Positions 9,819 to 63,310 of a stretch of 64,000 nucleotides of DNA are shown piece by piece; the first letter of the stretch is position 1; each line of letters opens with the position of its first letter. The stretch comes from Microbacterium sp. zg-Y818 (GTDB taxonomy: Bacteria > Actinomycetota > Actinomycetes > Actinomycetales > Microbacteriaceae): NCBI RefSeq assembly GCF_030246905.1, contig NZ_CP126741.1, positions 2,418,001-2,482,000 on the forward strand. Reading direction: 5' to 3'. The position numbers and the translations under genes are program-made. The notes under the pieces were generated by a model that had not been told where the DNA came from, searched no databases, and saw nothing but the letters and a program-made list of their open reading frames with translations.

Positions 9819-10700
9819 ATGATCGTCAGTGAACACCCCCGGCCCGCGAAGACCTTCGTGCACCTGGCCGACACCCATCTGCCCGGCGAGCACACGCTCC
9901 TGTACGGCGCCGCCGACGCCGACGGGCACCTGGCCGCCTTGCTCGAGCGGATCGAGACCAGCGGCCTGCGCCCCGACGCGCTGCTGTTGGCGGGGGACCT
10001 CGTCGACCGGGGCGACCGGTCGGCGTACCGTCGGCTGCTCGCCCTCGTCGAGCCCGTCGCCGAGCGGATCGGCGCCGAGGTGGTGTGGGCCGCGGGCAAC
10101 CACGACGACCGCGCCGCGATGCGCGCGGAGCTGCCGCTGCCGGACGCGGCCGACCCGGCATCGCCCGTCTGCTTCACCCGCTGGTTCGGAGGGCTCCGCG
10201 TGCTGGTGCTGGATTCGACCGTGCCTGGCGAGCACTGGGGAGAGATCGGTCCCGAGCAGCAGTCCTGGCTGCGCGACGAGCTCTCGACGTCTGCACCCGA
10301 GGGCAGCCTGCTGGTGGTGCACCACCCGCCGCTTCCGACCGTGCTCGATCTTGCGGTGACGGTGGAGCTGCGCGGGCAGGAGGCGCTCGCGAACGTGCTG
10401 CGCGGATCGGATGTGCGGGCGATCCTGTCGGGGCACGTGCACCACCCGTCGTTCGGCGCGTTCGCCGGCATTCCCGTCGCCGTCGCGTCGTCGAGCGCGT
10501 ACGGACAGGATCTCGCGACCGCCGTGGGTTCGACGCGGGGGCAGGATGCCGCGCAGGGCTACAACCTGGTGCACGTCTATGCCGACACGATCGTGCACTC
10601 CCCCGTCGCGCTGGGGCGCGGTTCGACCGTCGGCGAGCACGTGCCCGCCGACGAGGCCGCCCGCCGCATCGCCGCCGCCGGCATCGCCTGGCGCGAGTGA
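9819..10700 (+). CDS. Calcineurin-like phosphodiesterase, end of ABC operon
   Basis: ATG 9819 follows GAAGGA with eight bases of spacing. The 293-residue enzyme has the class III cyclic nucleotide phosphodiesterase/GpdQ-like set of metal motifs: DTH (near 18), GDLVDRGD (near 67), GNHDD (near 95), HHPP (near 168) and GHVHH (near 207). It should hydrolyse a phosphodiester in the cytoplasm. Lying 82 bases after the regulator, it probably processes what the upstream importer brings in, for example a glycerophosphodiester-like compound. The gene ends in GAG-TGA, and the stop lies within a GTGAGTATTC repeat. Confidence 0.82.
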   Translation: MIVSEHPRPAKTFVHLADTHLPGEHTLLYGAADADGHLAALLERIETSGLRPDALLLAGDLVDRGDRSAYRRLLALVEPVAERIGAEVVWAAGNHDDRAAMRAELPLPDAADPASPVCFTRWFGGLRVLVLDSTVPGEHWGEIGPEQQSWLRDELSTSAPEGSLLVVHHPPLPTVLDLAVTVELRGQEALANVLRGSDVRAILSGHVHHPSFGAFAGIPVAVASSSAYGQDLATAVGSTRGQDAAQGYNLVHVYADTIVHSPVALGRGSTVGEHVPADEAARRIAAAGIAWRE

Positions 10701-10706
10701 GTATTC
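10697..10706 (+). repeat. GTGAGTAYTC element overlapping a stop codon
   Basis: GTGAGTATTC begins at 10697, and its second to fourth bases are the TGA stop of the phosphodiesterase. This is one member of a family seen also at 20469, 20489, 49648 and 63241-63310. Confidence 0.7.
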
Positions 10707-10784
10707 GGCGGTGGAAGGAGCTGTCAACCACTGGGACGGGCTCGCGACGATTCGTAGCCTGAGGAGAAACCGAAAGGACTCTCC

Positions 10785-11393
10785 ATGCTCCGTGCCCTCG
10801 TCCTCAACTGCACTCTGAAGCCCTCGCCCGCCGAGTCCAGCACCGACCTGCTCGCCCAGCAGGTGCTCGACGCCCTCGCCGCCCACGACGTCACGGGCGA
10901 GACCGTGCGCGTGGTCGACCACGACGTCAAGCCCGGAGTCGAAGCCGACATGGGCGACGGCGACGAATGGCCGCTGATCCGCGGGCGCGTGCTGGCATCC
11001 GACATCCTCGTCTTCGCCACCCCCACCTGGGTCGGCCACATGTCGAGCGTCGCCCAGCGCGTGATCGAGCGACTGGATGCCGAGATCTCCGAGACCGACG
11101 ACGAGGGCCGCCCGCTGCTCGCCGGAAAGGTCGCCGTCGTCGCCGTCGTGGGCAACGAGGATGGCGCGCACGCCGTCATCGCGGATGCCTTCCAGGGCCT
11201 CAACGACGTCGGATTCACGATCCCGTCGCAGGGCGGCGTCTACTGGAACGGCGAGGCCATGCAGACCACCGACTACAAGGACCTCGACGAAATGCCGGAA
11301 GCCGTCGCGACCACCACCGAGACAGTGGCCCGCCACGCCGCGCACCTTGCGGCGCTCCTCAAGGAGCGCCCTTTCCCGGCTCCGGCCTCCTGA
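10785..11393 (+). CDS. Flavodoxin-like NAD(P)H-dependent oxidoreductase
   Basis: The 202-residue protein has the flavodoxin fold signature: an N-terminal strand LRALVLNCTLKPSPAESST that wraps the FMN phosphate, then DILVFATPTWVGHMSS near residues 66-80, typical of NADPH-dependent FMN reductases and the WrbA/azoreductase group. It is cytoplasmic and probably reduces quinones or other small molecules with FMN. AAAGGA lies seven bases upstream of the ATG, and TAGCCT at 10754-10759 could be its -10 box. It stands alone. Confidence 0.82.
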   Translation: MLRALVLNCTLKPSPAESSTDLLAQQVLDALAAHDVTGETVRVVDHDVKPGVEADMGDGDEWPLIRGRVLASDILVFATPTWVGHMSSVAQRVIERLDAEISETDDEGRPLLAGKVAVVAVVGNEDGAHAVIADAFQGLNDVGFTIPSQGGVYWNGEAMQTTDYKDLDEMPEAVATTTETVARHAAHLAALLKERPFPAPAS

Positions 11394-11411
11394 ACGGCGG
11401 GCGGGGCCGGT

Positions 11412-12749
11412 TCAGTCGTCGCGAACGGCCCCGGCGCCCGCCTCGACAGGGCCATCTGCGTCCACCGAAGCCACGGAAGCAACGGACGCAACCGGCGCGA
11501 CGGGCACGCCCGAACCCACCGCAACCCGCCGCCCGCGCCGCTCCACCGCGAGGTTGATCACCGCGAGCAGCAGGACGACCCCCGCCGCGACAAGCGGGAA
11601 CGCCATCGCCGTCTCGACGCCGAAGTCCTCCGCGACCGCTCCGGTCACGGCCGAAGCCAGCGACTGTGCGAGGGCGACCGACGACCCGAGCACCGTCATC
11701 ACGGTCGCCGTGCGCCCGATGGGGCTGCGGTTGCCGGCGAGGCTGAAGAGGGTCACGAGCGTCGGACCGACGCCCAGCCCCATGATCGCCAGCGCCACGG
11801 TGACGGCGGTGACCGTGCCGCTCAGCGTGAAGGCGGCCGTCGCCCCCACCAGCACGGCGGCGAACAGCATCCAGCGCCACCGCAGCGCGAACCGGGTCGG
11901 CAGCAGCGCGACCGCAAGGGCCAGCACCGCCGACCCGATCCCCATCACGCCGTACAGCAGCGCCGCCGAGTCCACGTCGCCCTGTGCCTTCATGAAGGCG
12001 GTGAGCGACGTCAGCGTCGTGCCGAAGAACGCGCCGACGGCGAACGTCGCCGCGACGATGACCAGCACCGGCATGCGCAGCAGCTCGCGCGCGGGCGCGA
12101 TCACGGCCGGCTCGTCCCCCGCGACGGGCGAGGCCGCGCGTGCGGTCGGATGCAGCGCGAACGCGGTGACGAAGACGAAGCTCAGCACAGCGGCGCCGGC
12201 CACAGGCGCCCACGGCGCGATGAACGAGGCGAGCACGCCGACGACGACGGGCCCGATGACGAACGCCGTCTCGTCGGCGGCCGACTCGTACGCCATGGTG
12301 CGCGAGAACGTTCGCTCGCGGCGCGACACCGTGAGGCGCTCGCGGATGATCGCCATCAGCCGGCTGCGCGACATCGCCGCCGCCTGCGGGGCGGTCAGGC
12401 CGATCAGCAGGGCTGCGAGAAGCAGCATCCAATCCGCCGTCGCCGCTGCCACGACGAATGGGAACGCCGCCAGCAGGGCGCTGTTGACCAGCCCCAGTGG
12501 CACGAGCACCCGGCGCTGGCCGTGGCGGTCCACCGCGTCGCCGACGATCGGACCGGCGATGACCGTGCCGATGCCGACTGCGGCCGAGGTGAGGCCGCCG
12601 AGCGCCACCGAGCCGGTGGAGGAGACGACGAGCGTCAGCACGCCGACGACCATCATGGCGAACGGCAGACGCGCGAGGAACGCGATCGGGAAGTACCAGG
12701 GACCGGTGTGGACGATCAGCGGGCGATCATCAACGGCGGGAGCAGACAT
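11412..12749 (-). CDS. MFS transporter
   Basis: The 445-residue protein has about 12 membrane helices and the loop 2-3 motif GDAVDRHGQRR (near residue 58) of the major facilitator superfamily. A second copy of the pattern around GNRSPIGRTATVM marks the second half. It is most like actinobacterial drug or metabolite exporters, but the substrate is unknown. The C-terminal tail repeats VASVASV and is low complexity. ATG 12749 has GAGG nine bases upstream. It converges on the flavodoxin gene and is divergent from the ROK regulator. Confidence 0.82.
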   Translation of the reverse strand: MSAPAVDDRPLIVHTGPWYFPIAFLARLPFAMMVVGVLTLVVSSTGSVALGGLTSAAVGIGTVIAGPIVGDAVDRHGQRRVLVPLGLVNSALLAAFPFVVAAATADWMLLLAALLIGLTAPQAAAMSRSRLMAIIRERLTVSRRERTFSRTMAYESAADETAFVIGPVVVGVLASFIAPWAPVAGAAVLSFVFVTAFALHPTARAASPVAGDEPAVIAPARELLRMPVLVIVAATFAVGAFFGTTLTSLTAFMKAQGDVDSAALLYGVMGIGSAVLALAVALLPTRFALRWRWMLFAAVLVGATAAFTLSGTVTAVTVALAIMGLGVGPTLVTLFSLAGNRSPIGRTATVMTVLGSSVALAQSLASAVTGAVAEDFGVETAMAFPLVAAGVVLLLAVINLAVERRGRRVAVGSGVPVAPVASVASVASVDADGPVEAGAGAVRDD

Positions 12750-12918
12750 GGCGAAGACCTCGGTTCGGCGGGCAGGTTCAGACGTGCCGCCTTGCCTTTC
12801 CAGCAGGTAGATGCACCGTGTCGTGCGCCGGAGAACCCAGACGCACCGCATCAAGGATACCGGCCCTTACCTGAGCGGGCGCTACGCTCGTCGGAAGATC
12901 CGACAGAGCAGGTGCGCA

Positions 12919-14148
12919 ATGGCCCGTCGCGGCGCCAACCAACCGAGCGTCGGCGGCTTCAACCAGGCGGTGATCCTCGACCAGATCCGCCGATCCGGCG
13001 GCCTCAGCCGGGTGGAGCTCGCCGCGCTCACCGGCCTGTCCGCCCAGACCGTGTCGAACATCACGCAACGACTGATGGATGCCGGCATCGTCGCAGAAGC
13101 CGGCCGCACCTCGGTGACCCCGGGACCGGGCAAGCCCCGCACCACGCTGCGCCTCGCACCGGGCAGCCGGTTCGCACTGGGGGTTCACGTGGATCCCAGC
13201 GTGCTGAGCTTCGTGATGCTGGGGATCGACGGCGAAGTCGTCGCCCGTCACCATCACCCCACCCCCGACGCCAACGACCCCGAGCACACCGTGCGGCTGA
13301 TCACCAGGGAGCTCGAGCGACTGGTGGATGCCACCGGCGTGGACCGCACCCGCATCGTGGGGGTCGGGATCGCCGCCCCCGGACCCATCGACGCCGGGCG
13401 GGGAGTCGTGGTCGACCCGCCGAACCTCGGCGGCTGGCACCGGGTGACGCTGCGTGACGCGATCGCGCGGGCGACCGGCTTTGCGGTCGTGCTCGACAAG
13501 GACGTCACCGCCGCGGCCGTCGCCGAGCGCTGGGTCTCGACCGACACCACCGGCAGCTTCGCGTTCCTCTACCTCGGCACTGGTCTCGGCGTGGGGTTGA
13601 TGCTCCCCGATGACGTGGTGCGCGGCGGCTCGGGCAACGCCGGCGAGATCGGCCACATCGTCACCGACCCGACCGGTGCACCCTGCGCGTGCGGCCTGCG
13701 CGGCTGCGTGGCCGTGAGCTGCACGCCGGCGGCCCTCGTGGCCGAGGCCGAGGAGCTCGGCATCCTCCCCGCCGGCCGCACGTCTGATGACCCGGTCACC
13801 ATCGACCACGCCTTCTCGGCGCTCGTCGGCCGCGCAGGCGCCGGCGATCCCCTCGCCGGTCTGCTGCTCGACCGCGCCGCGCACCGGGTCGCCCGCGCAC
13901 TGTCGGTGGTCTGCAACCTGCTGGATGTCGACCGCGTCGTGCTCGGGGGTCCACTGTGGTCGCGGCTGGCCCCCTGGTTCGATCCCCAGGTGGCGGAGGC
14001 GCTGGAAGGCCTGCGGGTCGCCCGGGGCCTTCACGACGTCACGGTGGTCGGGACGGCGCTGGGCGACGACGTGGGCGCGATCGGAGCGGCATGCCTCATC
14101 CTCGATGAGGTGCTGACGCCGCGGCCGACCTCACTGTTGCGCAATTGA
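12919..14148 (+). CDS. ROK family transcriptional regulator of the mannoside operon
   Basis: The 409-residue protein begins with a winged helix (GGLSRVELAALTGLSAQTVS near residues 27-46) and continues with a ROK sugar-kinase-like domain. The zinc site is complete: H246 in GEIGHIV, and C256, C258 and C263 in CACGLRGC, as in NagC and Mlc. It lies just upstream of, and on the same strand as, a sugar ABC transporter and an alpha-mannosidase. It probably represses them until the sugar binds. A 23-bp palindrome 22 bases past its stop is the likely binding site. Confidence 0.9.
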   Translation: MARRGANQPSVGGFNQAVILDQIRRSGGLSRVELAALTGLSAQTVSNITQRLMDAGIVAEAGRTSVTPGPGKPRTTLRLAPGSRFALGVHVDPSVLSFVMLGIDGEVVARHHHPTPDANDPEHTVRLITRELERLVDATGVDRTRIVGVGIAAPGPIDAGRGVVVDPPNLGGWHRVTLRDAIARATGFAVVLDKDVTAAAVAERWVSTDTTGSFAFLYLGTGLGVGLMLPDDVVRGGSGNAGEIGHIVTDPTGAPCACGLRGCVAVSCTPAALVAEAEELGILPAGRTSDDPVTIDHAFSALVGRAGAGDPLAGLLLDRAAHRVARALSVVCNLLDVDRVVLGGPLWSRLAPWFDPQVAEALEGLRVARGLHDVTVVGTALGDDVGAIGAACLILDEVLTPRPTSLLRN

Positions 14149-14170
14149 CACCTTCCCCGCTTGACATCCT

Positions 14171-14193
14171 TTAAGTCCATTCGATTGACTTAA
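14171..14193. promoter_or_regulatory. Palindromic operator, probable ROK-binding site
   Basis: TTAAGTC at 14171-14177 and its exact reverse complement GACTTAA at 14187-14193 are separated by nine bases. The site is 23 bp overall, the size and AT-ended form of known NagC/Mlc operators. Two TTGACA hexamers (14145-14150 and 14161-14166) lie just upstream, so a bound protein would block the promoter of the sugar operon. I could not fix the -10 box. Confidence 0.7.
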
Positions 14194-14250
14194 TGCCGCG
14201 AGGCGCCAGCCGCCTCTGCCTACCCCGGGGCCCAGCAAAGGAGCAGCACC

Positions 14251-15615: not shown

Positions 15616-15617
15616 CG

Positions 15618-17401: not shown

Positions 17402-17439
17402 CCGCCCCCTGCCCTGCACTCCCGATCGGAGTTTCCGCC

Positions 17440-20400
17440 ATGCACCGCAACGACCGTCTCGCCCTCCAGCGCATCGACCGGCTCAGCCGCGACCGGCTCG
17501 CCGGTGCGCTGTACCGGGAGACCACGCCGCTGACGATCACCGCGTGGGAGGTGCCCGGTGAGCCGGTGCCCTTCGCCGAGGCCGTGCGCGCCGAGTACAG
17601 GCCGTTCGAGGTCGGCGGCCGCTGGGGAAAGCCGTGGGGCACGGTGTGGTTCCACGTCACCGGCACCGTTCCGGCGGGCTGGTCGGACGCCCCCGGCACC
17701 AGCGTGGAGCTGGTGGTCGATCTCGGGTTCGACGTCTCGGCGCCCGGTTTCCAAGCCGAGGCACTGGTCTTCCGCCCCGACGGCACGATCGTCAAGGCGA
17801 TCGAGCCGCTGAACGCCACGGTGCCGATCGAAGGTGACGAGGTGGACCTCTACATCGAGGCGGCCGGCAACCCCAGCGTCGCGGGCACCTTCACCTTCGC
17901 ACCCACGCCGCTCGGCGACCCCGCCACCGCGGGCGACGAGCCGATCTACCGCCTCGCAGGTCTCGAGCTGGCACTGCGGGACCGCGAGGTGTGGGAGCTC
18001 GCGCAGGACATCACGGCGCTGCGGGGTCTCGTCGACCAGCTCGATCCCGATCGCACCCGGCACGCCCGCGTGCTCGCCGCGCTCGGCCGCGCCGTCGACG
18101 CCCTGGACCCGGACGACGTGGCCGGCACGGCCACCGCCTCGCGCACGCAGCTGGCCGACGTGCTGGCGTCGCCGGCTGCGGCATCCTCCCACCACATCAC
18201 CGCGGTGGGGCACGCCCACATCGACTCGGCGTGGCTGTGGCCCACCCGCGAGACGGTGCGCAAAGTCGCCCGCACCTTCTCGAACGTGCTGGATCTCATC
18301 GACCGCGACGAGGACTTCGTCTTCGCGGCGTCGTCTGCGCAGCAGTACGCCTGGCTCGAGGAGCACTACCCCGACCTGTTCGCCCGGGTCGCCGAGGCTG
18401 TCAAGGCCGGCCGCTTCGTTCCCGTGGGCGGCATGTGGGTGGAATCCGACACGAACATGCCGGGGTCCGAGGCGCTCGCGCGTCAGTTCGTCGAGGGCAA
18501 GCGGTTCTTCCTGGAGAAGTTCGCGGTGGAGCCCTTGGAGGTGTGGCTGCCGGACTCGTTCGGCTACTCCGCCGCCCTGCCGCAGATCATCGCGCAGGCG
18601 GGGTCGCGGTGGTTCCTCACCCAGAAGATCTCGTGGAACGAGACCAACCGGATGCCGCATCACACGTTCCTGTGGGAGGGCATCGACGGCACCCGGGTGT
18701 TCACGCACTTCCCGCCGGTCGACACGTACAACTCCGACCTCTCCGCCGCCGACCTCGCGCGCGCCGAGCGGCAGTTCGCCGAGAAGGGCGGGGCGCGCTC
18801 CTCGCTGGTGCCGTTCGGCTGGGGCGATGGCGGCGGCGGACCGACGCGCGAGATGGTCGCCGCGGCCAGGCGCACGGCCGACCTGGAGGGGTCGCCGAAG
18901 GTGCGCATGGCTACCCCGTCGCAGTTCTTCGCCGACGCCGAGGCCGAGTACGCCGACCCTCCGGTGTGGTCGGGCGAGCTGTACCTGGAGTACCACCGCG
19001 GCAGCTACAGTGCCCAGGCCCGCACCAAGCGCGGCAACCGCCGCAGTGAGCACCTGCTGCGCGCCGCGGAGCTGTGGGCGACGCTCGCGACCGTGCGCAC
19101 CGGTGCCGCCTACCCCGCCGACCGGTTGCGGCGCCTGTGGCGGCTCGTGCTGCTGCAGCAGTTCCACGACATCCTCCCCGGCACGTCGATCGCCTGGGTG
19201 CACCAGGAAGCTGAGCGCAACTACGCCGCCGTCGCGGTGGAGCTGGCGGAGATCATCGACGCCGCGCTGCGCGCCCTCGCCGGAGACGGGGACCTGCGCC
19301 TTCGCGCGAACGCGGCGCCGGTCGCCGTCGGCGGCGTGCCGGCGCTCGGCGCCGCCGTCGAGGCGGAGGTGCCGGCGGCGGCGGTGGACGCGGCGGTGGT
19401 GCGCGTGCGCGCCGCGGGCGACGGGTGGGTGTTCGCGCACGACCGGATGCGGTGGGCGATCGACGCGCGCGGCGTGGTCGTGGGGGCCCGCGACCTCGTC
19501 GCCGACCGGGAGCTGATCGATCCGCAGCGGCCCGCCGGTGTGCTGCAGCTCTTCCGTGACACGCCCCGGGACTGGGATGCCTGGAACATCGACGTCGAGG
19601 ATGCGGCGCTGTACCGCGACCTGCTCGAGGTCGAGTCGATCGAGCCGACCGCCGACGGCGGCGGTCTCGTCGTCACGCGGTCGTTCGGAGGCTCACGGGT
19701 GGAGCAGGAGTATCGCGTCGATCCGGGCAGCGGGGCGCTGGACATCACGGTGCGACTGGACTGGCGGGAGCGGCAGAAGATGCTCAAGCTGGCCTTCCCG
19801 CTGCAGCTGCGCGCCGAGCGCACGCAGTCCGAGATCCAGTTCGGGCACGTGTCACGCTCGGTGCACAGCAACACGACCTGGGATGCCGCGAAGTTCGAGA
19901 CCGTGGCGCACCGCTGGATCCGTGTGGTGGAGGGCGGCTACGGCGTCAGCGTCGCGAACAACGCGAGCTACGGTCACGACGTCCGCCGCGGCGACGGTGC
20001 GAGCGGGGGCGCGCACACCGTGGCGCGCGTGACGCTGGTGCGCGCACCGCTCTTCCCCGACCCCGAGGCCGACCAGGGATCGCACGAGTTCACGGTGTCG
20101 CTGCTCCCGGGCGCCGACGTCGCCGATGCCGTCGCGGAGGGGTTCCGGCTGAACCTGCCGACGGTCGCCCTGACCGGCGCGCGCCCGATCGAGCCCGCCC
20201 TGACGCTGGACGACGCCGGTGTCGTGATCGAGGCGGTGAAGCTCGCCGACGACGGCTCGGGGGACGTCATCGTGCGCCTGTACGAGGCCCTCGGCAGCCA
20301 GCGCAGCGCGACACTGCGCCCCGGCTTCGCCTGGACGGCCGTCGAGCAGACGGACTTGCTCGAGCGCCCGGTCGCCGCAACCGCCCTCGCCGCGGCGTCC

Positions 20401-20472
20401 GATGACGCGATCGACCTGTGCCTGCAGCCCTTCCAGCTCGCGACCCTGCGCCTGAGCCGCCCCGCCGAGTGA
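17440..20472 (+). CDS. Glycoside hydrolase family 38 alpha-mannosidase
   Basis: The 1010-residue protein has the full GH38 layout. An N-terminal beta domain is followed by the catalytic barrel, with zinc ligands H260 and D262 in HAHIDSAWLW and the nucleophile D372 in WLPDSFGYS, then a GWGDGGGGPTREM motif near residue 464 and a large C-terminal beta-sandwich region. There is no signal peptide, so it acts in the cytoplasm on imported mannosides, releasing mannose from alpha-linked oligosaccharides. It is the last gene of the ROK-controlled operon. The gene ends in GAG-TGA within a GTGAGTATTC repeat. Confidence 0.92.
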   Translation: MHRNDRLALQRIDRLSRDRLAGALYRETTPLTITAWEVPGEPVPFAEAVRAEYRPFEVGGRWGKPWGTVWFHVTGTVPAGWSDAPGTSVELVVDLGFDVSAPGFQAEALVFRPDGTIVKAIEPLNATVPIEGDEVDLYIEAAGNPSVAGTFTFAPTPLGDPATAGDEPIYRLAGLELALRDREVWELAQDITALRGLVDQLDPDRTRHARVLAALGRAVDALDPDDVAGTATASRTQLADVLASPAAASSHHITAVGHAHIDSAWLWPTRETVRKVARTFSNVLDLIDRDEDFVFAASSAQQYAWLEEHYPDLFARVAEAVKAGRFVPVGGMWVESDTNMPGSEALARQFVEGKRFFLEKFAVEPLEVWLPDSFGYSAALPQIIAQAGSRWFLTQKISWNETNRMPHHTFLWEGIDGTRVFTHFPPVDTYNSDLSAADLARAERQFAEKGGARSSLVPFGWGDGGGGPTREMVAAARRTADLEGSPKVRMATPSQFFADAEAEYADPPVWSGELYLEYHRGSYSAQARTKRGNRRSEHLLRAAELWATLATVRTGAAYPADRLRRLWRLVLLQQFHDILPGTSIAWVHQEAERNYAAVAVELAEIIDAALRALAGDGDLRLRANAAPVAVGGVPALGAAVEAEVPAAAVDAAVVRVRAAGDGWVFAHDRMRWAIDARGVVVGARDLVADRELIDPQRPAGVLQLFRDTPRDWDAWNIDVEDAALYRDLLEVESIEPTADGGGLVVTRSFGGSRVEQEYRVDPGSGALDITVRLDWRERQKMLKLAFPLQLRAERTQSEIQFGHVSRSVHSNTTWDAAKFETVAHRWIRVVEGGYGVSVANNASYGHDVRRGDGASGGAHTVARVTLVRAPLFPDPEADQGSHEFTVSLLPGADVADAVAEGFRLNLPTVALTGARPIEPALTLDDAGVVIEAVKLADDGSGDVIVRLYEALGSQRSATLRPGFAWTAVEQTDLLERPVAATALAAASDDAIDLCLQPFQLATLRLSRPAE

Positions 20473-20498
20473 GTATTCGTGTCGCCGAGTGAGTATTC
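20469..20498 (+). repeat. Two GTGAGTAYTC units, 20-bp period, on a stop codon
   Basis: GTGAGTATTC occurs at 20469-20478 and again at 20489-20498, exactly 20 bases apart, each preceded by GCCGA. The first overlaps the TGA of the mannosidase. The 20-bp period equals that of the array at 63241. Confidence 0.75.
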
Positions 20499-20508
20499 GC
20501 CCCGCCGC

Positions 20509-21213
20509 TCAGCCGGAGGCGCGCTCCAGCTCACGGCGCACGTACGCGGGCACGACGACGGATGCAGGACCCAGCACCACCTCGTCGAACAGCGACGTGT
20601 CTTCGTGGGTCTCGAGATTCAGCAGCGCGGTCTTTGCACCGACCGCGCGGGCGAGCGCGTGCAGAGTTGATGCCGGCGACACGTTGCCGGACGTGCCGAT
20701 GACCCACAGCTGTTCGCAGGTCTCCACCGCTTCGTAGATCTCATCGAGCCCGTAGACCATCTCACCGAACCAGACGATGTCAGGTCGCAGCGCGCTGGCC
20801 CCGCAGCGCGGACACGGCGGCCCGTCGGCCAGATCTTCGGCCCACGGCACGTGCGCCCCGCACCGGGTGCAGAGCGCACTCGCCAGCTCGCCGTGCATGT
20901 GGATCACCCGCCGGGAGCCCGCCCGCTCGTGCAGGTCGTCGACGTTCTGCGTGACGATGAGCACGTCGCCGCCCGTGGCCTCCTCGAGTTCGGCCAGGGC
21001 GCGGTGCGCGGGGTTGGGCTCAGCCGCCCGCGCGGCGCGGCGCCGCTGGTCGTAGAACTCCTGCACGAGGGCGGGGTTGCGCGCGAAACCCTCCGGAGTC
21101 GCGACGTCCTCGATGCGGTGCTCCTCCCACAGCCCGTCGACGGCGCGGAAGGTCGGGATGCCGGATTCCGCCGAGACTCCGGCACCGGTGAGGACCACGA
21201 TGCGCGCGCTCAT
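20509..21213 (-). CDS. Sir2-family NAD-dependent protein deacylase
   Basis: The 234-residue sirtuin has GAGVSAESGIPTFR (10-23), TQNVDDLHERAG (89-100), catalytic H108 and a zinc ribbon of C116, C119, C135 and C138. Y54 and R57 form the Tyr-x-x-Arg pair that marks class III enzymes able to remove succinyl and malonyl groups, as in CobB and SIRT5. It should deacylate lysines on cytoplasmic proteins using NAD+. TAGCGT lies seven bases before the ATG, so the transcript is probably leaderless. Confidence 0.9.
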   Translation of the reverse strand: MSARIVVLTGAGVSAESGIPTFRAVDGLWEEHRIEDVATPEGFARNPALVQEFYDQRRRAARAAEPNPAHRALAELEEATGGDVLIVTQNVDDLHERAGSRRVIHMHGELASALCTRCGAHVPWAEDLADGPPCPRCGASALRPDIVWFGEMVYGLDEIYEAVETCEQLWVIGTSGNVSPASTLHALARAVGAKTALLNLETHEDTSLFDEVVLGPASVVVPAYVRRELERASG

Positions 21214-47971: not shown

Positions 47972-48166
47972 GCCGCGACGTTACGTCGCGGCATCCCCGC
48001 GCGCCACACGCCCCCTGTGGGCTGCCGTTGCCCGCGCGCGATAGCGCACCGCTGCGCCCGGTGCCAACTGCCTGCAGGTCGTCCGCCCAGCCTCGTAAGG
48101 TACCCGGGACGGACCGAACGGACACGTCCGTCGCGCCCGCGCGGCGCGAGAGAACGCGGAGGACCC

Positions 48167-49651
48167 ATGACCCGACAGGCAGAGACGACCGAGGCCGAGA
48201 CCCCCAGGCTGGAAGTGGACGACGTGATCGTCGTCGACAAGAAGCGGGTACGCACCGCGATCGGCGGGACCGCCGTGGGCAACTTCATGGAGTGGTTCGA
48301 CTTCGGCATCTACGGCTACCTCGCCGTCACCCTCGCCATGGTGTTCACCGCAGACCTGCCGGAGCCCTGGGGGCTGCTGGTGACCCTCTTCGGGTTCGCG
48401 GTGTCGTTCCTGGTGCGCCCGATCGGCGGTCTCGTCCTGGGTCCGCTGGGTGACCGAATCGGCCGCCAGCGGGTGCTGTTCTTCACCATGGCGCTCATGG
48501 CGGTCGCCACCGCCCTCATCGGGGTGCTGCCGACTTCCGATCAGATCGGACTGTGGGCCATCGTGCCGCTGTACCTGCTGAAGATGGCGCAGGGCTTCTC
48601 CACCGGCGGCGAGTATGCCGGTGCGACGACGTACGTCGCCGAGTTCTCCCCCGACCGCCGTCGCGGGTTCTGGTCGTCGTGGCTCGACGTCGCGTCGTAC
48701 GTCGGGTTCGCTGCGGGAGCCTCGGTGGTGGCACTCACGACCCTCATCACCGAGAGCGTCTGGGGACCCACGGCGATGGTCGACTTCGGCTGGCGCATCC
48801 CCTTCCTGCTGGCGATCCCGCTCGGCGTGGTGGCGATCTGGTTCCGCCTGCGCATCCCCGAGACCCCGGCCTACGAGACGACGGTTGAGCATGAGTCGAC
48901 CGTCGCCGCCGATGACCCGCTGGCGCGTCACGGCGTGGTCGGCATCCTGCGCCACCACTGGCGCCCCGTCCTCATCTGCGTGGCCATCGCCGCCGCCACC
49001 AACACGGCCGGCTACGCGCTCACCAGTTACATGCCCACCTACCTCGAGAACGAGGTCGGCGTCTCCAACCTCACCGCCGCCGTGGCGACGGTGCCGGTGC
49101 TGCTCGTCATGTCGGCGTGCCTGCCGCTCATCGGCCTGCTGAGCGACCGCATCGGGCGGCGCCCGGTGTACCTCATCGCGGCGGGCTCGACCCTCGTGCT
49201 CATGGTTCCCGCCTTCGCCGTCATGCAGATCGGCGAACTGTGGGCCGTCTTCGTGGCGCTGACGATGGTCGCGGTGCCGGTGGCCTTCTACGTCGCCGTG
49301 GCGGCATCGACGCTGCCGGCGCTCTTCCCCACGGCATCGCGCTTCGGCGCCATGGCGATCGCGTACAACGTGGCATCGTCGCTCTTCGGCGGCACGACCC
49401 CGCTGTTCAGCCAGGGCCTCATCGAACTCACCGGCAACACGTACATGCCGGCGTTCTACATCATGTTCTTCGCGCTGCTGGGCAGCGTCGCCATGCTGGC
49501 GATGAAGGAGACCGCGCAGCGGCCGCTGCTCGGCTCGGTGCCCACGGTGGAGACGCCCGCCGAAGCCGAGGCCGTGGTGGAGCGCCAGGACGAGGACCCG
49601 CTGATCGACACCTCGACCATGCCGCTCCCCATCCACCGCCCCGCCGAGTGA
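48167..49651 (+). CDS. MHS-family MFS transporter (ProP-like)
   Basis: The 494-residue protein has 12 helices and the metabolite:H+ symporter signatures: GNFMEWFDFGIYGYLA near residues 38-53, PIGGLVLGPLGDRIGRQRV near 86, and GFSTGGEYAGATTYVAEFSP near 143. This matches proline/betaine and organic acid symporters such as ProP. GGAGGA precedes the ATG. The C-terminal tail is acidic and Pro-rich. The last codons GCC-GAG-TGA lie in a perfect palindrome shared with the converging gene. Confidence 0.9.
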   Translation: MTRQAETTEAETPRLEVDDVIVVDKKRVRTAIGGTAVGNFMEWFDFGIYGYLAVTLAMVFTADLPEPWGLLVTLFGFAVSFLVRPIGGLVLGPLGDRIGRQRVLFFTMALMAVATALIGVLPTSDQIGLWAIVPLYLLKMAQGFSTGGEYAGATTYVAEFSPDRRRGFWSSWLDVASYVGFAAGASVVALTTLITESVWGPTAMVDFGWRIPFLLAIPLGVVAIWFRLRIPETPAYETTVEHESTVAADDPLARHGVVGILRHHWRPVLICVAIAAATNTAGYALTSYMPTYLENEVGVSNLTAAVATVPVLLVMSACLPLIGLLSDRIGRRPVYLIAAGSTLVLMVPAFAVMQIGELWAVFVALTMVAVPVAFYVAVAASTLPALFPTASRFGAMAIAYNVASSLFGGTTPLFSQGLIELTGNTYMPAFYIMFFALLGSVAMLAMKETAQRPLLGSVPTVETPAEAEAVVERQDEDPLIDTSTMPLPIHRPAE

Positions 49652-49664
49652 GTACTCACTCGGC
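49643..49664. repeat. Perfect 22-bp palindrome holding two convergent stop codons
   Basis: GCCGAGTGAGT at 49643-49653 is followed directly by its exact reverse complement. Read on either strand it encodes Ala-Glu-stop: TGA 49649-49651 ends the MHS gene and TGA 49658-49656 ends the PAP2 gene. It consists of two inverted, overlapping GTGAGTACTC elements. Confidence 0.9.
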
Positions 49665-50324
49665 AGCAACGGGTGCGACGCGGAGCGGAATTCGGGATCG
49701 GCGGGTCGCTTCGGCCCGCAGCGGCACGGCGAAGGCGGATGCCATCAGCAGCGCCATCCCGGCGCCGATCATCGCCCCACCCACGGTGTCGCTCAGCCAG
49801 TGCGCGTGCAGGTACGTGCGACTGAAGGCCATCAGCATCACCCACACCGCCCCTGCGATCACGACCGACAACCGCGGGAAGAGCACGGCGGCCACCACCG
49901 CGAGGGTCGCGGCGTTGGCGGCGTGCCCAGAAGGGAACGAGCCGTAGTCGCTGATCACCAGGATCTCCTCGGGGCGCGCCCGGCCGAAGAGGTGCTTGAG
50001 CACCTGCACCGCCGCGGCGCTGAAGATCGACGCCGCCACGAAGTACAGAGCACCCATGTACCGCCGCATGATCAGCAGCGCCAGCGCTCCCCCGATCGGC
50101 ACAACGAAGACGCCGAACACTCCCCCGCCGAGCCAGTTCATGGCCAGTGAGAACACCGCCACCGCCTCGACCTGCCACCCCACGAGGGCCTGGTTCCACC
50201 AGTGGTCGAGCACGAAGGGCTCGGGCCCGCGCTGCAGGATCCACGCGCCCAGCGCGCAGGCGAGGGCGACGAGCACGATCCCGGGCACGAGCAGGCGCGC
50301 AATCGGACGGTTGAGGGCTTCCAT
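49656..50324 (-). CDS. PAP2-family phosphatase
   Basis: The 222-residue protein has about six helices and all three phosphatidate phosphatase motifs: KHLFGRARP near residue 110, PSGHAAN near 131, and SRTYLHAHWLSD near 169. It should dephosphorylate a lipid phosphate such as phosphatidate, undecaprenyl pyrophosphate or PGP at the outer membrane face. The stop codon lies in the palindrome shared with the convergent MHS gene. Confidence 0.9.
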   Translation of the reverse strand: MEALNRPIARLLVPGIVLVALACALGAWILQRGPEPFVLDHWWNQALVGWQVEAVAVFSLAMNWLGGGVFGVFVVPIGGALALLIMRRYMGALYFVAASIFSAAAVQVLKHLFGRARPEEILVISDYGSFPSGHAANAATLAVVAAVLFPRLSVVIAGAVWVMLMAFSRTYLHAHWLSDTVGGAMIGAGMALLMASAFAVPLRAEATRRSRIPLRVAPVAAE

Positions 50325-57091: not shown

Positions 57092-57098
57092 GGCTCCC

Positions 57099-57249: not shown

Positions 57250-57299
57250 GAGTTTCGCGCCACAATGATGCGGCGACGGTGAATCGAAGGAGATCTCTC

Positions 57300-58340: not shown

Positions 58341-58378
58341 TGAAGGCCCCGGATGCCGTGGCATCCGGGGCCTTCATC
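58339..58378. terminator. Hairpin terminator between lacI-type gene and rplL
   Basis: GATGAAGGCCCCGGATGC (58339-58356) pairs perfectly with 58361-58378 across a four-base loop. It begins in the stop codon of the regulator and ends 12 bases before the rplL stop, so it can serve both genes. Confidence 0.9.
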
Positions 58379-58390
58379 GCAGAAGCGTGA

Positions 58391-58771: not shown

Positions 58772-58821
58772 GATGTATCTCCTAGATAGATGGGGTTTGT
58801 GGGAAAAATGCCGCGGGTCGC

Positions 58822-59310
58822 TTACGCGGCCTCAGCGGTCTCCAGCTTTTCGCGAAGCGCGTCGATGGTGGCCGCAGCCTTGCCCATCGTCGCCTTCATC
58901 ATGCCCGCCGCCTTCGCCAGCAGAACCTCACGGCTCTCGAGCGAGGCGTACTTGTTGACCTCGTCGGCAGTGAGGGTGTTGCCCTCGAAGATGCCGCCCT
59001 TGATCACGAGAAGCGGGTTGGCCTTGGCGAAGTCACGCAGAGCCTTCGCGGTGGCGACGAAGTCGCCGTGCACGAACGCGACGGCCGACGGACCCTTGAG
59101 GTCCTCGTCCAGCGCGGTGATCCCCGCGTTGTTCGCGGCGATCTTGGTCAGCGTGTTCTTCACCACGGCGTACTGCGCGTCCTGACGGATGTCGTTGCGC
59201 AGCTGCTTGAGCTGGGCAACCGTCAGACCGCGGTACTCGGTCAGCAGGACGGCGTTCGAGTTCTCGAAGTTCTTCGTGAGCTCGGCGACCGATGCATCCT
59301 TCTGCGCCAT
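58822..59310 (-). CDS. rplJ: 50S ribosomal protein L10
   Basis: The 162-residue protein has the L10 start [20 protein letters not shown] (residues 4-23) and [17 protein letters not shown]. Its C-terminal helix carries L7/L12 dimers. L10 binds its own mRNA leader in bacteria. Here a 200-base leader with a terminator hairpin lies upstream, which fits such control. GGAGT precedes the ATG. Confidence 0.97.
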
Positions 59311-59516
59311 GGTCACTCCTTGATGTGTACGAGACGCTCCGCGGTGGCGGGCGTCGACCTCAGCCCGTCGCTCCCTCACAACAAAAAAGCTCCGGCGCAA
59401 GCGCACGGAGCTGAATTCCTGAGAATCGTTCTGTACACCTGCGTGGGCCCCTGCTGTGCAGAGCTTCGATCGTGATGCGCTTGCGCGCACACCGATGACC
59501 GACGGTCTTTGGCTTG
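59311..59516 (-). promoter_or_regulatory. L10 leader RNA with attenuator
   Basis: The minus-strand leader opens with CCAAAGACCGTCGGTCATCG, the sequence typical of the L10-binding kink-turn region. About 100 bases later it has the hairpin AGCTCCG/CGGAGCT (59412-59388) ending in six T residues (59388-59383). Excess L10 could promote termination here. The consensus is from memory of the L10 leader family. Confidence 0.7.
59383..59412 (-). terminator. Intrinsic terminator inside the rplJL leader
   Basis: The stem AGCTCCG with an inner GCGC pair closes on an AA/TT turn and is followed by T6 on the minus strand. It lies 73 bases before rplJ, so it must be conditional or partial. Confidence 0.75.
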
Positions 59517-59522
59517 TGTCCC

Positions 59523-59550
59523 AGCATACGTCGTACGCTCCATGCGGCAA
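59523..59550 (-). promoter_or_regulatory. Promoter of rplJL
   Basis: On the minus strand TTGCCG (59550-59545) and TATGCT (59528-59523) are 16 bases apart, with transcription starting near 59516. Confidence 0.65.
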
Positions 59551-59571
59551 AATCCGCCCTGGCCCCAGAAT

Positions 59572-59589
59572 TGGGGACTTCTCCCCATC
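59572..59589. promoter_or_regulatory. Palindromic motif upstream of the WXG cassette
   Basis: TGGGGACTTCTCCCCATC is identical to the motif before the LRV/DUF4190 gene (45340-45357). It lies 52 bases before the first gene of the cassette and 22 before a TACGCT -10 box (59612-59617). Confidence 0.55.
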
Positions 59590-59641
59590 CCCCTCTCCCC
59601 CGCACCGTTCCTACGCTGAGTGCGAGCAGGGAGGAGAGCTG

Positions 59642-59968
59642 ATGCCGGATCTCAGAGTGGACACCGAGGCGCTGCGGCGGACGCAGGCGACGCTTTCGGA
59701 CATCGGTCAACGCCTGGAGGCTGCGACAAGCGGATTCGCGTCGATTTCGGGGGCGAGCGTGGCCCACGCAGACCTTCGCAGCCGATTGGACGAGCTCGGG
59801 AGCTCGTGGGGTATCGGGCTGAAGAAGCTCGGCGAATACGCCGGCGGTGCGGCGACCGCGCTCAACGGCGTCGCCGACGCGTTCGAGGGCACCGACGACG
59901 CGCTCGCCGACGCGCTCAGCACGCCGCCGTCGCAGGCCGCGTCGCACCGACCCGGTGGTGCGCGGTGA
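59642..59968 (+). CDS. Small ESX/WXG100-like protein
   Basis: ATG 59642 has AGGGAGGAG upstream. The 108-residue protein is two long helices joined near ELGSSWGIGL (W56-G57), with no cysteine or signal peptide: the size and shape of WXG100 proteins, although the strict W-x-G is degenerate here. Such proteins are exported by type VII secretion, often as dimers with a larger partner. The next gene overlaps by four bases (GTGA) and encodes a clear WXG protein, so the two probably pair. Confidence 0.72.
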   Translation: MPDLRVDTEALRRTQATLSDIGQRLEAATSGFASISGASVAHADLRSRLDELGSSWGIGLKKLGEYAGGAATALNGVADAFEGTDDALADALSTPPSQAASHRPGGAR

Positions 59969-61161
59969 GCGCATTCGCCGCGCTCGGGTTCGACCCGGCG
60001 CCGGGCGATGTCGCGGCGGTGCGTTCCTTCGCCGAGCAGTTGGAGACGGGCCGTCGGAGCGCCGACGATGCACTGGACCTCATGAGAGGCGGGGATTCCG
60101 CGGAGTGGCAGGGCATGACCGCCGACGCCTTCCGCTCGTCGTTGGATTCGGAGTTCCGCCCCCACCTGCGCGACATCCGCACCGCCTTCGAGGATTCCCG
60201 GGGGGCGCTGACGGAGTGGGCCGACCGGCTCGCCGACTTCCAGGCGCGCGCAGCCCGCCTGGAAGAACAGGCCCGCGTGGCGCAGGCCACGCTCGCCAGC
60301 CGCCAGAGCTCGCTGGCGACCACGACCTCGCAGTACCGCGCCGACCCGCTGGCGGAAGGCGCCGGCGACGACCTGGCCCTCGCCCTGCGGCTCGCCGAGA
60401 GCGCGCAAGGCGATCTCGACGGCATCCGCCGTCGCGCGCGGACGCTGCAGTCCGAGGTCGAGGGGTGCGCCACGGTCTGCGCCCAGGCGCTTCAGGGCAG
60501 CTCGGAGATCATCTCCAAGTACTCGGGCAGCAACTGGGACAAGTTCAAGGACTTCGTCAGCGGCGTGGGCGACTCGATCGCCGATGCCGCGGACTGGTTC
60601 ATGGACAACGTGATGCCCATCCTCGAGGACATCATCGACACCATCGGTCCGATCATGGCGGTCGTCGCCCTGTTCGCCGCGTTCATCCCGGGGGTGGGCC
60701 AGGCCATCGGCGCCATCGCACTGGGGCTCGCGATCGCCTCGGTCGCGATCGACGGCCTGCAGGCGCTGCGCGGGGAGGAGGGCGCGGCCGGCGACTTCGT
60801 CATGGGGCTCGCCGGGCTCGCACTCGGCGGTGCGCTGGGTAAACTCGGCACCGCGCTGGGCAACGGCACCCGCCAGGTGCTGATCCCGGTGATCCAGGGC
60901 GGCGGAGGCCTGGCTCTCGCGGGCGGCGGTTCGGCCGCCGCAGCCGGCAGCCTCACGCTCGCCTTGCGTTTCAACCCGATCGCCCTGCAGGCCAACACCC
61001 TGTGGATGTCGACCAAGCTCACGGAGGCGCATATGTCCGGCACCGACATGGTCGGCGCGATGACCCAGCCCGCGGTCAACCTCGGCGAGCGCGTGCGCAA
61101 CCTCGCCTCCGGCGACGGCCCGCGCACCGATGCGGAACTGGCCGAGCGTGGCCGCGACTGA
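59965..61161 (+). CDS. WXG-motif protein with central hydrophobic domain
   Basis: The 398-residue product starts with an ESX-like helical module with W48-Q49-G50 in AEWQGMTADAFRSSL, then a coiled-coil region rich in Ala/Arg/Gln (residues about 75-165). From about 215 to 300 come hydrophobic helices (IIDTIGPIMAVVALFAAFIP, AIGAIALGLAIASVAIDGLQ). The last 100 residues are Gly/Ala-rich. This is the layout of LXG/WXG type VII substrates whose C-terminus can act on membranes. Toxic activity is not shown. The next gene overlaps its end. Confidence 0.65.
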   Translation: MSAFAALGFDPAPGDVAAVRSFAEQLETGRRSADDALDLMRGGDSAEWQGMTADAFRSSLDSEFRPHLRDIRTAFEDSRGALTEWADRLADFQARAARLEEQARVAQATLASRQSSLATTTSQYRADPLAEGAGDDLALALRLAESAQGDLDGIRRRARTLQSEVEGCATVCAQALQGSSEIISKYSGSNWDKFKDFVSGVGDSIADAADWFMDNVMPILEDIIDTIGPIMAVVALFAAFIPGVGQAIGAIALGLAIASVAIDGLQALRGEEGAAGDFVMGLAGLALGGALGKLGTALGNGTRQVLIPVIQGGGGLALAGGGSAAAAGSLTLALRFNPIALQANTLWMSTKLTEAHMSGTDMVGAMTQPAVNLGERVRNLASGDGPRTDAELAERGRD

Positions 61162-61792
61162 GCCGCGGATACCGTGGCAGCGGGTGCCGCAGGGCTGGAT
61201 CGAGCTGGCGGCTTTCCGTGACGACACCGTCGCCGAGGGCTGGTGGCAGCAGTATCTGGCCGCCGCGGGCGACGCGGTGGACGACGAGACGCGTGCCGGA
61301 CTGACGCAAGGCTTCCGCGCGGGCCGCGATGTGCTGCGCGCAGCGCCTTTCGCGTTCACCTTCGCCGGAATCTTCCCCTGGATCTCGGAGACGCCCACGG
61401 TGTTCTTCATCGGCACGACGATCCTCCCCTCCCCCGAAGACGCACGGGCGGCGCGAATGGCGGGGAGCCTGTCGGGCCTCGTCCGCATCGGCGACGACGT
61501 GCAGACGGAATCGTTCGTCGCCCTCGACGGCCGTAACGGGTGGTCGACCACCAGCCGTTACCTTCTGCCGAACGGGGACGAGGTCGGGGTCATCCTCGCC
61601 GATGTGCCGCTCCCCGACGCGAGCGGCCATGTGTTCGTGGTGGCGCTGACCCCTGACCCCGAGCACCTCGACGCCCTTGCGCCCTACGCTGCGCTCGCAC
61701 TGGATTCCACGACCTTGCTCGATCCCGACCAGGAGGCGCCGGCCTACCCCGGGCCCGATATTCTGGCCGCTTCCGTCCCCCCAGGAGACTGA
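61148..61792 (+). CDS. Hypothetical protein of the WXG cassette
   Basis: The 214-residue protein (220 if ATG 61130 is used) is soluble, with many aromatic residues (GWIELAAFRDD, GFRAGRDVLRAAPFAFTFAG) and a compact beta-rich region around FFIGTTILPSPEDARAARM. I do not recognise the family. It overlaps the end of the WXG gene and so is made with it. By position it could be a chaperone, immunity protein or secretion adaptor, but nothing in the sequence decides this. Confidence 0.6.
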   Translation: MAATEPRIPWQRVPQGWIELAAFRDDTVAEGWWQQYLAAAGDAVDDETRAGLTQGFRAGRDVLRAAPFAFTFAGIFPWISETPTVFFIGTTILPSPEDARAARMAGSLSGLVRIGDDVQTESFVALDGRNGWSTTSRYLLPNGDEVGVILADVPLPDASGHVFVVALTPDPEHLDALAPYAALALDSTTLLDPDQEAPAYPGPDILAASVPPGD

Positions 61793-61793
61793 C

Positions 61794-62501
61794 GTGTTCG
61801 CAATGATCCAGCCGGCGACGCTCGCCCTTGTGGAAACGGCGGAGCGCGCGCGGGCCGCGGGCGAGGTCGCCACCGTGCCGCAGGGCATGAACATCGCCGG
61901 CGTGGACGCGGCCACCGAGGCCGTGCGGGCGGATTACGGCCGAACGTCACGGTGGCTGCTCGGGCTGCTGGGCACGACGGGGGATGCCGCCGCCGGGCTG
62001 GCCGCGATCTTCGCCGGCTTCGGGTTGTCGGTGGCGGGCACAGATCCAGCGACGGCTGCACTCTCCGGCGCCGTCGGCGTCGTGATCGCCCTTGCGCTCG
62101 CACTGCCCTCGACTCTGCTGCTGTGGCGACTGCATCTGTCAGGACGACGCCTTGCCCGGGCCACGGCCTTCTGGGCAGCGCTGCCGTACCTGTCGGGCGC
62201 GCGCCGTCCCGTCCCGGGTGATTATTTCGCGGTGCGCTTCCTTGCCTACTCCCCCGACCTGCTCATCCGGGTGATCTCATCGGTGGGCGCATTTCTGGCG
62301 GCGGTGTTCTCGCTGTCGATGATCTTCTACGCCACCGCCGTCGACCCCGACCCGACTCTCGCGGTCATCGCGGTGCTGTGGTCGGTGCTGTTCGTTGCGG
62401 TGACGATCGGGCAGTTCGGTGGCATCCAGCGCATTCAGGTGGGCTACAGCCATCGCGATCCACTGGGCTACGAACGGCGGATGCGCCGCGCCCGCACCTG
62501 A
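61794..62501 (+). CDS. Hypothetical membrane protein of the WXG cassette
   Basis: GTG 61794 has AGGAG seven bases upstream and lies one base after the previous stop. The 235-residue protein has a soluble N-terminal region of about 45 residues and four membrane helices, two on each side of a cytoplasmic segment, with a basic C-terminus. No family recognised. Being last in a coupled four-gene set it may anchor or protect against the WXG protein. Confidence 0.6.
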   Translation: MFAMIQPATLALVETAERARAAGEVATVPQGMNIAGVDAATEAVRADYGRTSRWLLGLLGTTGDAAAGLAAIFAGFGLSVAGTDPATAALSGAVGVVIALALALPSTLLLWRLHLSGRRLARATAFWAALPYLSGARRPVPGDYFAVRFLAYSPDLLIRVISSVGAFLAAVFSLSMIFYATAVDPDPTLAVIAVLWSVLFVAVTIGQFGGIQRIQVGYSHRDPLGYERRMRRART

Positions 62502-62593
62502 CCGGCTGCGGCGCGCCCGGCCGACGAGATCCGACCCGCCGCCGAGCGGCGTGGAGGGCGGATGCCGTCGGCGGCCGGGTTTAGGGTCGATGT

Positions 62594-63244
62594 GTGACCC
62601 CCGAACTCTCCGCTCGCATCGTCGCGGATTCCCGCGACCGCGTGGCGTGGGTGCGGGCGCGCTCGCGCGGCATCACGGCAACGGATGTCGCGGCGCTGAC
62701 ATCCGAGAAGGCGATCGCCCGCGCCGCCGACGCCAAGCTGCTCGGATCAGGATTCTCGGGCAACGCCTACACCGATCACGGACGCCGCCGCGAACCGGAG
62801 ATCGCCCGCTGGGTCGCCGCGACCCACGGCATCCAGCCGTCGTCGGCACTGTTCCACGCCGTGGTCGAGAAACGGCACCTGGCCACGCCCGACGGCGTCG
62901 GACTCGATAAGAACGGCCGGGTGATCCTGGCCGAGATCAAGACGACCAACAAGCACTGGCGGTCGATTCCGCGCTCCTACCTGCGTCAGGTGTGGTGGCA
63001 GCAGCACGTGCTCGGCGCCGAGCGCACCCTCGTGACCTGGGAGCAGCACGTGGACTTCGTGCCCGTCGGCGACGAACCGCGGTGCGCATGGGTGGACCGC
63101 GACGAGTACGAGATCGGCAAGCTGGTGAAGCTCGCCACCGCCCTCATCGACGAGCTGTACCACCGCACGATGCAGCGCCGCACCCTCGTCGCCCCGCCGA
63201 CCGCCCCGCGCGAGCCCTTCCGCGCCCTCGCCCTCGCCGAGTGA
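62594..63244 (+). CDS. YqaJ-type phage recombinase-like exonuclease
   Basis: The 216-residue protein carries the lambda-exonuclease/YqaJ nuclease core: ITATDVAAL near residues 27-35, GRRREPEIA (E67/E69), D100, and E114-I-K116 in ILAEIKTTNK, the PD-(D/E)xK active site. It should degrade one strand from double-stranded ends. No phage genes or partner annealing protein are nearby. TAGGGT (62582-62587) seven bases before GTG suggests a leaderless mRNA. The gene ends in GAG-TGA at a tandem GTGAGTAYTC array. Confidence 0.83.
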   Translation: MTPELSARIVADSRDRVAWVRARSRGITATDVAALTSEKAIARAADAKLLGSGFSGNAYTDHGRRREPEIARWVAATHGIQPSSALFHAVVEKRHLATPDGVGLDKNGRVILAEIKTTNKHWRSIPRSYLRQVWWQQHVLGAERTLVTWEQHVDFVPVGDEPRCAWVDRDEYEIGKLVKLATALIDELYHRTMQRRTLVAPPTAPREPFRALALAE

Positions 63245-63310
63245 GTACTCGCGTTCCCCAGTGAGTACTCGCCTTCCCCAGTGAGTACTCGCGTTCCCGA
63301 GTGAGTATTC
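63241..63310 (+). repeat. Tandem array of 20-bp GTGAGTAYTC units
   Basis: Units start at 63241, 63261, 63281 and 63301, each exactly 20 bases after the last. The consensus is GTGAGTACTCGCGTTCCCCA; the last is only the first half, with ATTC. The first unit overlaps the TGA of the exonuclease gene. Confidence 0.9.

Follow-up and report, generated by a model that had tools for sequence, protein, structure and literature searches.

The DNA considered here is a 64-kb window (the whole stretch that was analysed) from Microbacterium sp. zg-Y818, in which the decamer GTGAGTAYTC recurs at the ends of five genes. The decamer is the core part of a 20-bp unit comprised of a constant CGAGTGAGTAYTCG followed by a variable 6-bp spacer of the form CGNNSS. 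As read from all 123 decamer copies of the window's genome, units follow one another head to tail every 20 bp, or every 19 bp in a few cases; inside the window, wherever copies repeat, the spacing is exactly 20 bp, as the first-pass annotation of this DNA had described. The copies in the window and the genes that end in them, with gene families assigned by Pfam, are as follows.

9819..10700, + strand: calcineurin-like phosphoesterase gene, with its ...RE* end inside the unit
10694..10707, + strand: one isolated unit, core CGAGTGAGTATTCG; the phosphoesterase gene 9819-10700 takes its stop from the TGA at 10698-10700
17440..20472, + strand: GH38 alpha-mannosidase gene, with its ...AE* end inside the unit
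20466..20499, + strand: array of two units with cores at 20466-20479 and 20486-20499; the GH38 gene 17440-20472 stops at TGA 20470-20472
48167..49651, + strand: sugar/MFS transporter gene, with its ...HRPAE* end inside the unit; array-free relatives have ...HRS* or other ends
49645..49662, both strands: overlapping facing pair, forward core 49645-49658 and reverse core 49649-49662, holding the stops of both convergent genes
49656..50324, - strand: PAP2 family gene, its stop within the reverse unit
62594..63244, + strand: YqaJ-like gene, with its ...LAE* end inside the array's first unit
63238..63311, + strand: four-unit array, cores 63238-63251, 63258-63271, 63278-63291 and 63298-63311; the YqaJ-like gene stops at TGA 63242-63244

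The five genes that end at the GAG-TGA of a unit are mutually unrelated by Pfam, their ends being those called by a home-made codon-usage caller and not by a standard gene caller.

Abundance and species range of the repeat

The decamer has nine matches in the window, eight on the + strand and one inverted copy, and each lies where the first-pass annotation had placed it. The accompanying statement that base composition predicts almost none also held, as 100 dinucleotide-preserving shuffles of the window gave a mean of 0.05 matches and a largest count of 2. Across the single 3,234,984-bp contig of the same genome (G000), 123 copies are found, 65 on the + strand and 58 on the - strand, against 5 for a reversed-pattern control, and these group by strand into 69 arrays. 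Coincidence of a rare word is rejected by the window shuffles and this genome-wide excess over the reversed pattern, and a chromosome-polarity signal is rejected because the strand counts are near-equal. By eye, from the listed positions, the arrays of G000 look denser at 0-0.17 Mb and 3.05-3.18 Mb than in mid-contig.

The 12-mer GAGTGAGTAYTC is present in 115 copies in G000 and in 316, 235, 37 and 4 copies in the four other Microbacterium genomes with arrays (G133, G296, G025 and G387, respectively), with those of G387 forming one array. The remaining genomes of the 366 Microbacterium surveyed hold 0-2 copies each, any match at all being found in 49/366, and 23 genomes from other genera of the same order hold 0-1 each. 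A scan of GTDB r220 contigs for the tandem pattern returned nine stretches, namely seven from Microbacterium pullorum, one from a Deltaproteobacteria metagenome-assembled genome and one from Psychrobacter aquimaris. In three outgroups, over 100 kb each, near-matches with at most two mismatches numbered 1, 2 and 3 against 1, 2 and 0 for the reversed control, which amounts to no excess. A phage, plasmid or viral origin is rejected, with 0 copies in viral contigs and 0 in the plasmids searched; the phage search gave one 20-base match at chance level (E 0.9). No Rfam model matched the window at gathering threshold, and a literature search covering few subscription journals found no published description of the 20-bp repeat. 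We file this array family as a novel form of the extragenic hairpin repeats.

Genome-wide over-representation and the frequent facing pairs at convergent gene ends also recall the uptake sequences (DNA uptake sequences, DUS, and uptake signal sequences, USS) of Neisseria and the Pasteurellaceae, short over-represented words often paired as terminators. That the Microbacterium repeat is such a word is nevertheless highly improbable. It has far fewer copies (only 37-316 of the 12-mer per genome), its units are arranged in head-to-tail 20-bp arrays, it is confined to five species, and it is nearly absent from coding sequence, where only 4 cores lie wholly inside called genes among the 434 kb of coding sequence in all fetched G000 stretches.

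Predicted pairing between neighbouring units

A feature absent from the first-pass annotation and new to the present analysis is the self-complementarity of the unit on its sense strand. In sense RNA, GUGAGUAYUCGC is self-complementary by way of G.U pairs (G-C, U.G, G-C, A-U, G-C or G.U, U-A), and two direct copies 20 nt apart are predicted to pair into a 12-bp stem closed by an 8-nt loop. Direct repeats would behave like inverted repeats because this sequence pairs with its own second copy, whereas antisense RNA is predicted to fold worse because the sense-strand G.U wobbles become A.C mismatches. The + strand RNA of the four-unit array (63238-63311) is predicted to form two 12-bp stems, one between the outer units (1 and 4) and one between the inner units (2 and 3), at -41.2 kcal/mol (z -7.3), against -30.4 kcal/mol (z -1.5) for the - strand RNA, and the facing pair at 49645-49662 has a predicted fold of -17.9 kcal/mol (z -4.2). 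While these z values for window arrays derive from dinucleotide shuffles, the multi-genome means derive from mononucleotide shuffles of arrays of at least two units; their sense and antisense values are -2.3 and +0.6 in G000 (n=36), -2.9 and +1.2 in G133 (n=68), and -2.4 and +1.5 in G296 (n=16).

The seed decamer fixes most positions of the core (0-6 and 8-9), and variation and single-unit counts were therefore taken from neighbouring units. Single-unit arrays account for 2/72 in G133, 0/17 in G296, 2/17 in G025 and 24/70 in G000. The commonest changes at core positions 0-10, over 153 array loci, are T>C at position 7 (52 loci) and G>A at position 10 (32 loci), both of which preserve pairing by toggling between wobble and Watson-Crick forms. 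Together, the variation and the predicted folds support pairing between copies without proving it. Two other constraints were considered and rejected. A five-base hairpin inside one unit (CGAGU-GAGU-AYUCG) reaches only -1.5 kcal/mol for the T form and would be broken by the common G>A change at the final position of the core, the 12-bp stem between copies being the better structure; a perfect DNA palindrome is disfavoured by the minority status of the fully palindromic form (C at 7 with A at 10).

The explanation favoured here, held tentatively, is that the repeat is a lineage-specific RNA hairpin array of transcript 3' ends, that is, of transcription-unit borders, acting as a terminator or 3' boundary. 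The data thereby lean towards the transcript-end role that the first-pass annotation had listed among its possibilities. Neighbouring sense-RNA copies would pair into hairpins, as predicted by folding, and these would end or shield the transcript, either through termination without a U-tract or through 3'-end protection; where two genes converge, each would be served by the array on its side of the facing pair.

Alternatively, a sequence-specific protein may bind the unit as a DNA site, with tandem and facing arrays forming a polar block or insulator, a layout resembling that of eukaryotic rRNA-gene terminator boxes. Letters of the core are constant, those of the loop included, while spacers change between species and loci, and the strict 20-bp period corresponds to approximately two helical turns; each of these would suit a protein site. 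We nonetheless consider this explanation unlikely, as it predicts neither the sense bias of the folds nor the wobble-preserving pattern of variation.

Gene ends, stop codons and ordinary terminators

Placement rates by gap type were taken from contiguous stretches not chosen for arrays, the other fetched stretches having been chosen around arrays, and arrays common to several species are non-independent observations. Gaps bearing arrays make up 8/39 of convergent, 4/38 of divergent and 7/168 of co-directional gaps in G000; 8/32, 6/32 and 8/147 in G133; and 5/20, 3/20 and 5/83 in G296. Co-directional gaps with a native length below 30 bp, which are likely operon-internal, carry arrays in only 1/83 (G000), 1/78 (G133) and 1/42 (G296) cases. 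Among the 20 array-bearing co-directional gaps of the contiguous stretches, 11 hold sense units only, 5 hold sense then antisense units and 4 antisense units only. Mixed arrays in these stretches follow the forward-then-reverse order in 11/11 gaps, with exceptions elsewhere at G133 1676538 and in G025 (C19 307198-307218). The repeat is tied to gene ends, as the first-pass annotation proposed, but is not purely a gene-end element, because approximately a tenth to a fifth of divergent gaps also carry arrays, an occurrence that a protein-binding site would accommodate.

The relation to stop codons was evaluated against a null in which arrays were slid within their own gaps in random orientation (500 simulations). 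The TGA of the first unit is the gene's stop in 23/69 arrays of G000, where the null gave 0.6 with a maximum of 5, and in 14/69, 4/17 and 5/16 arrays of G133, G296 and G025, with nulls of 0.5, 0.1 and 0.1, respectively. The claim that first copies overlap the stops of unrelated genes therefore stands for all five genes of the window, but genome-wide it extends only to the 23 arrays just mentioned. An array never starts 1-8 bp past a stop; the unit either carries the stop or sits entirely after it. Arrays located 0-60 bp 3' of a same-strand stop number 47/69 in G000 (null 26.8, maximum 37), 39/69 in G133 (19.3, 29), 8/17 in G296 (5.4, 10) and 11/16 in G025 (6.2, 12), the counts of G296 and G025 being inside their simulated ranges. 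Set beside the 123 decamers against 5 reversed-pattern matches, the G000 count bears out a distinct repeat family tied to gene ends and stops; both the genome-wide excess and the link to stop codons were found, the two features whose absence the first-pass annotation would have taken to mean local coincidence.

Comparison of G000 with G387 finds the stop at the same codon at 10700 (GAG-TGA in both) and 63244 (GAG-TGA versus GAC-TGA) and a different C-terminus at 20472 and 49651, while the gene ending at G000 164074 is one codon longer. With some stops at the same codon and other C-termini changed, the unit both arises around native TGA stops and replaces gene ends. As the stop codon lies inside the stem of the first unit in a third of arrays, the array may further be gated by the ribosome, with the 3'-end structure, and hence termination or decay, reading out full translation of the gene. 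A terminating ribosome would keep unit 1 open and the other units would pair among themselves (2 with 3, not 1 with 2), and tandem duplication would build and tune this switch one 20-bp unit at a time, in a strand-specific manner and with no need for a perfect DNA palindrome. This elaboration of the hairpin array is regarded as rather improbable.

Ordinary hairpins offer a further comparison. With arrays masked and a strong stem defined by a score of at least 28, strong ordinary stems occur in convergent gaps with versus without arrays at 2/26 versus 10/30 in G000, 3/21 versus 10/24 in G133 and 1/5 versus 3/10 in G296. Arrays and strong ordinary hairpins at convergent ends thus tend, weakly and in small numbers, toward mutual exclusion. 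The median stem over an ortholog set of 7 array loci versus 8 others is 12.0 versus 35.5 in G000 and 21.5 versus 45.0 in G387, and at locus 81715 a long ordinary hairpin in G387 stands where G000 and G133 have arrays.

Several observations weigh against a 3'-end hairpin array. Changes that break pairs are common, with 96 breaking against 115 preserving locus-level variants at positions 0-10; the breaking changes include T>C at 5 (15 loci), T>C at 8 (14) and C>G at 9 (17). Self-complementarity is one observation and not 158, because all units descend from one core. The two-unit array of the window folds only modestly (20457-20509, + strand: -14.9 kcal/mol, z -1.9, with 12/200 shuffles equal or better), and another window array has a single unit. 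A T-run of at least 4 within 25 nt after the last unit occurs in 0/158 arrays, so that the array is not a classical intrinsic terminator, which consists of a GC-rich hairpin with a U-tract behind it. The counts of ordinary stems run the opposite way in G025 (1/7 with arrays versus 0/5 without), and the stem excess over shuffles has p values of 0.20 in G000, 0.020 in G133, 0.85 in G296 and 0.94 in G025. Lastly, a 3'-end role leaves the arrays in divergent (promoter) gaps unexplained, and the one array common to all five species sits at an operon-like junction between acyl-CoA dehydrogenase and AMP-ligase genes.

Array history and likeness to known repeats

The relationship of the five species rests on protein identities and not on a tree, the median over the fetched parts being 95.2% between G000 and G133 and 86-90% in the remaining pairs. 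Orthologous gaps, counted from fetched stretches biased toward arrays, carry them in both G000 and G133 in 30 cases, in G133 only in 5, in G000 only in 0 and in neither in 175, and in all 30 common gaps the unit total of G133 is at least that of G000. The corresponding counts are 1 both, 14 G000 only and 96 neither for G000/G387; 8 both, 6 G000 only, 1 G025 only and 55 neither for G000/G025; and 7 both, 4 G000 only and 69 neither for G000/G296. In the gap orthologous to that of the single window unit at 10694-10707, G133 has three forward units and one reverse unit, and G387 has a relic of two units; the gap orthologous to that of the facing pair at 49645-49662 holds four forward and four reverse units in G133 and none in G387, G025, G149 or G295. 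The divergent gap at 47972-48166 (G000 2465972), before the MFS gene, holds 0 units while its G133 ortholog has a clean four-unit array, and a unit array may have been gained or lost here recently.

Across 16 array-orthologous gaps of G387, the best core match has 1, 2, 2, 3, 3, 3, 4, 4, 4, 4, 5, 5, 5, 5, 6 and 6 mismatches, against length-matched means of 4.9-6.2, and near-matches with at most two mismatches number 13 versus 1 in the control, four of the 13 being the intact array. The simplest account of these sequence comparisons would be that the array family originated in a common ancestor and was lost in G387, G000 being part-way to such a loss. For the hairpin array, this would mean a family born in the ancestor of the five Microbacterium species, kept by selection in G133 and G296, shrinking in G000 and nearly gone in G387. 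The array present in all five species lies at the acyl-CoA dehydrogenase/AMP-ligase junction (G387 L140:7560-10507 region); this dehydrogenase shares 91-96% identity among the five, its best match in 11 other Microbacterium genomes being at most 35%, and the cluster may have been acquired by the group's ancestor.

A protein-site explanation would have G387 lose the protein and its sites decay, and the core that is intact in four species at approximately 88-95% protein identity, with relics in G387, agrees with such a course; the four intact cores that remain at one G387 locus do not. No candidate protein appeared in the compared G000 and G387 segments, which cover a minor part of G387: the differences there came from broken synteny across housekeeping genes (dnaK, grpE, dnaJ and others) and from segments fetched in only some species.

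A selfish or neutral repeat, similar to a miniature inverted-repeat transposable element (MITE) or a mycobacterial interspersed repetitive unit (MIRU), or else a micro-satellite spread by slippage, might also survive where it is least harmful, with the TGA serving as a stop only as a side effect of units having inserted at native TGA stops or close to them. Copy number indeed shifts fast, as the unit totals of the 30 common gaps attest, whole arrays are cleanly present or absent between species at some loci, and the species range is patchy. Spacers, moreover, differ less within than between arrays (of 6 positions, 1.71 versus 3.16 in G133 and 2.18 versus 3.34 in G000), which fits local duplication. 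We regard this explanation as doubtful, since the loci are mostly old and common to species, operon-internal gaps are avoided, and the core is the same at loci whose spacers differ, a pattern unexpected from whole-unit copying (although within- and between-array values are about equal in G296, 3.43 and 3.24). A Y1 transposase (RAYT, PF01797) was detected in 0/5 array genomes, with control genomes positive in 5/14, and the copies are absent from viral contigs and plasmids as noted above. With 30 of the 35 array-bearing gaps common to G000 and G133 and no such transposase, the miniature mobile repeat suggested by the first-pass annotation has lost ground.

Known repeats share some of these features. 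The MIRUs of mycobacteria, like the Microbacterium arrays, are arranged in tandem at gene junctions and overlap with stop codons. MIRUs are longer than the 20-bp Microbacterium unit, and the Microbacterium arrays lie at convergent and other unit borders and not mainly at translationally coupled operon junctions.

Repetitive extragenic palindromic sequences and the bacterial interspersed mosaic elements they form (REP/BIME) are short and extragenic, can form RNA hairpins with proposed roles in termination and mRNA protection, and are concentrated between convergent and co-directional genes; those with a CGTC tag are described as not requiring the Y1 transposase (PMC3733652). To that extent the Microbacterium arrays are alike, being extragenic and mainly in convergent and co-directional gaps. 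They differ in that the unit carries no conserved GTAG or CGTC tag (CGTC occurs in some spacers only), the five genomes show no Y1 transposase, the cognate enzyme of GTAG-type REPs, the hairpin is predicted to form between direct copies through G.U pairs and not within one palindromic element, the array has a tandem 20-bp period, and the unit supplies the stop codon. As predicted stem-loops just 3' of the stop, the arrays also resemble intrinsic terminators, among which clustered hairpins and forms without a U-trail are reported to be effective (PMC8355165). The same sequence nevertheless stands at scores of unrelated genes, in direct repeats, with no T-run and in divergent gaps as well.

Should the hairpin array prove correct, one modular sequence would re-equip scores of gene ends and grow by tandem duplication, with G.U pairs letting direct repeats fold like inverted ones on one strand only and with the unit doubling as a stop codon. 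The arrays, healthy in G133 and G296, shrinking in G000 and G025 and nearly lost in G387, would then form a natural series for the gain and loss of a 3'-end system; were the unit a protein site instead, the same five-species series would point to a lost binding factor.

Two minor observations concern other sequences. In the array-free relatives G149, G015 and G295 (L209-L223), the commonest gene-end 10-mers are variants of GCGGCATCCG / CGGATGCCGC; the window itself contains 95 copies of GGATGCC versus approximately 75 expected from sub-words, and 71 of GGATGCCG versus 72.5. Upstream of the YqaJ-like gene, window positions 59965-61161 encode a protein whose N-terminal part weakly resembles type VII secretion system (T7SS) signal or WXG100-like sequences.

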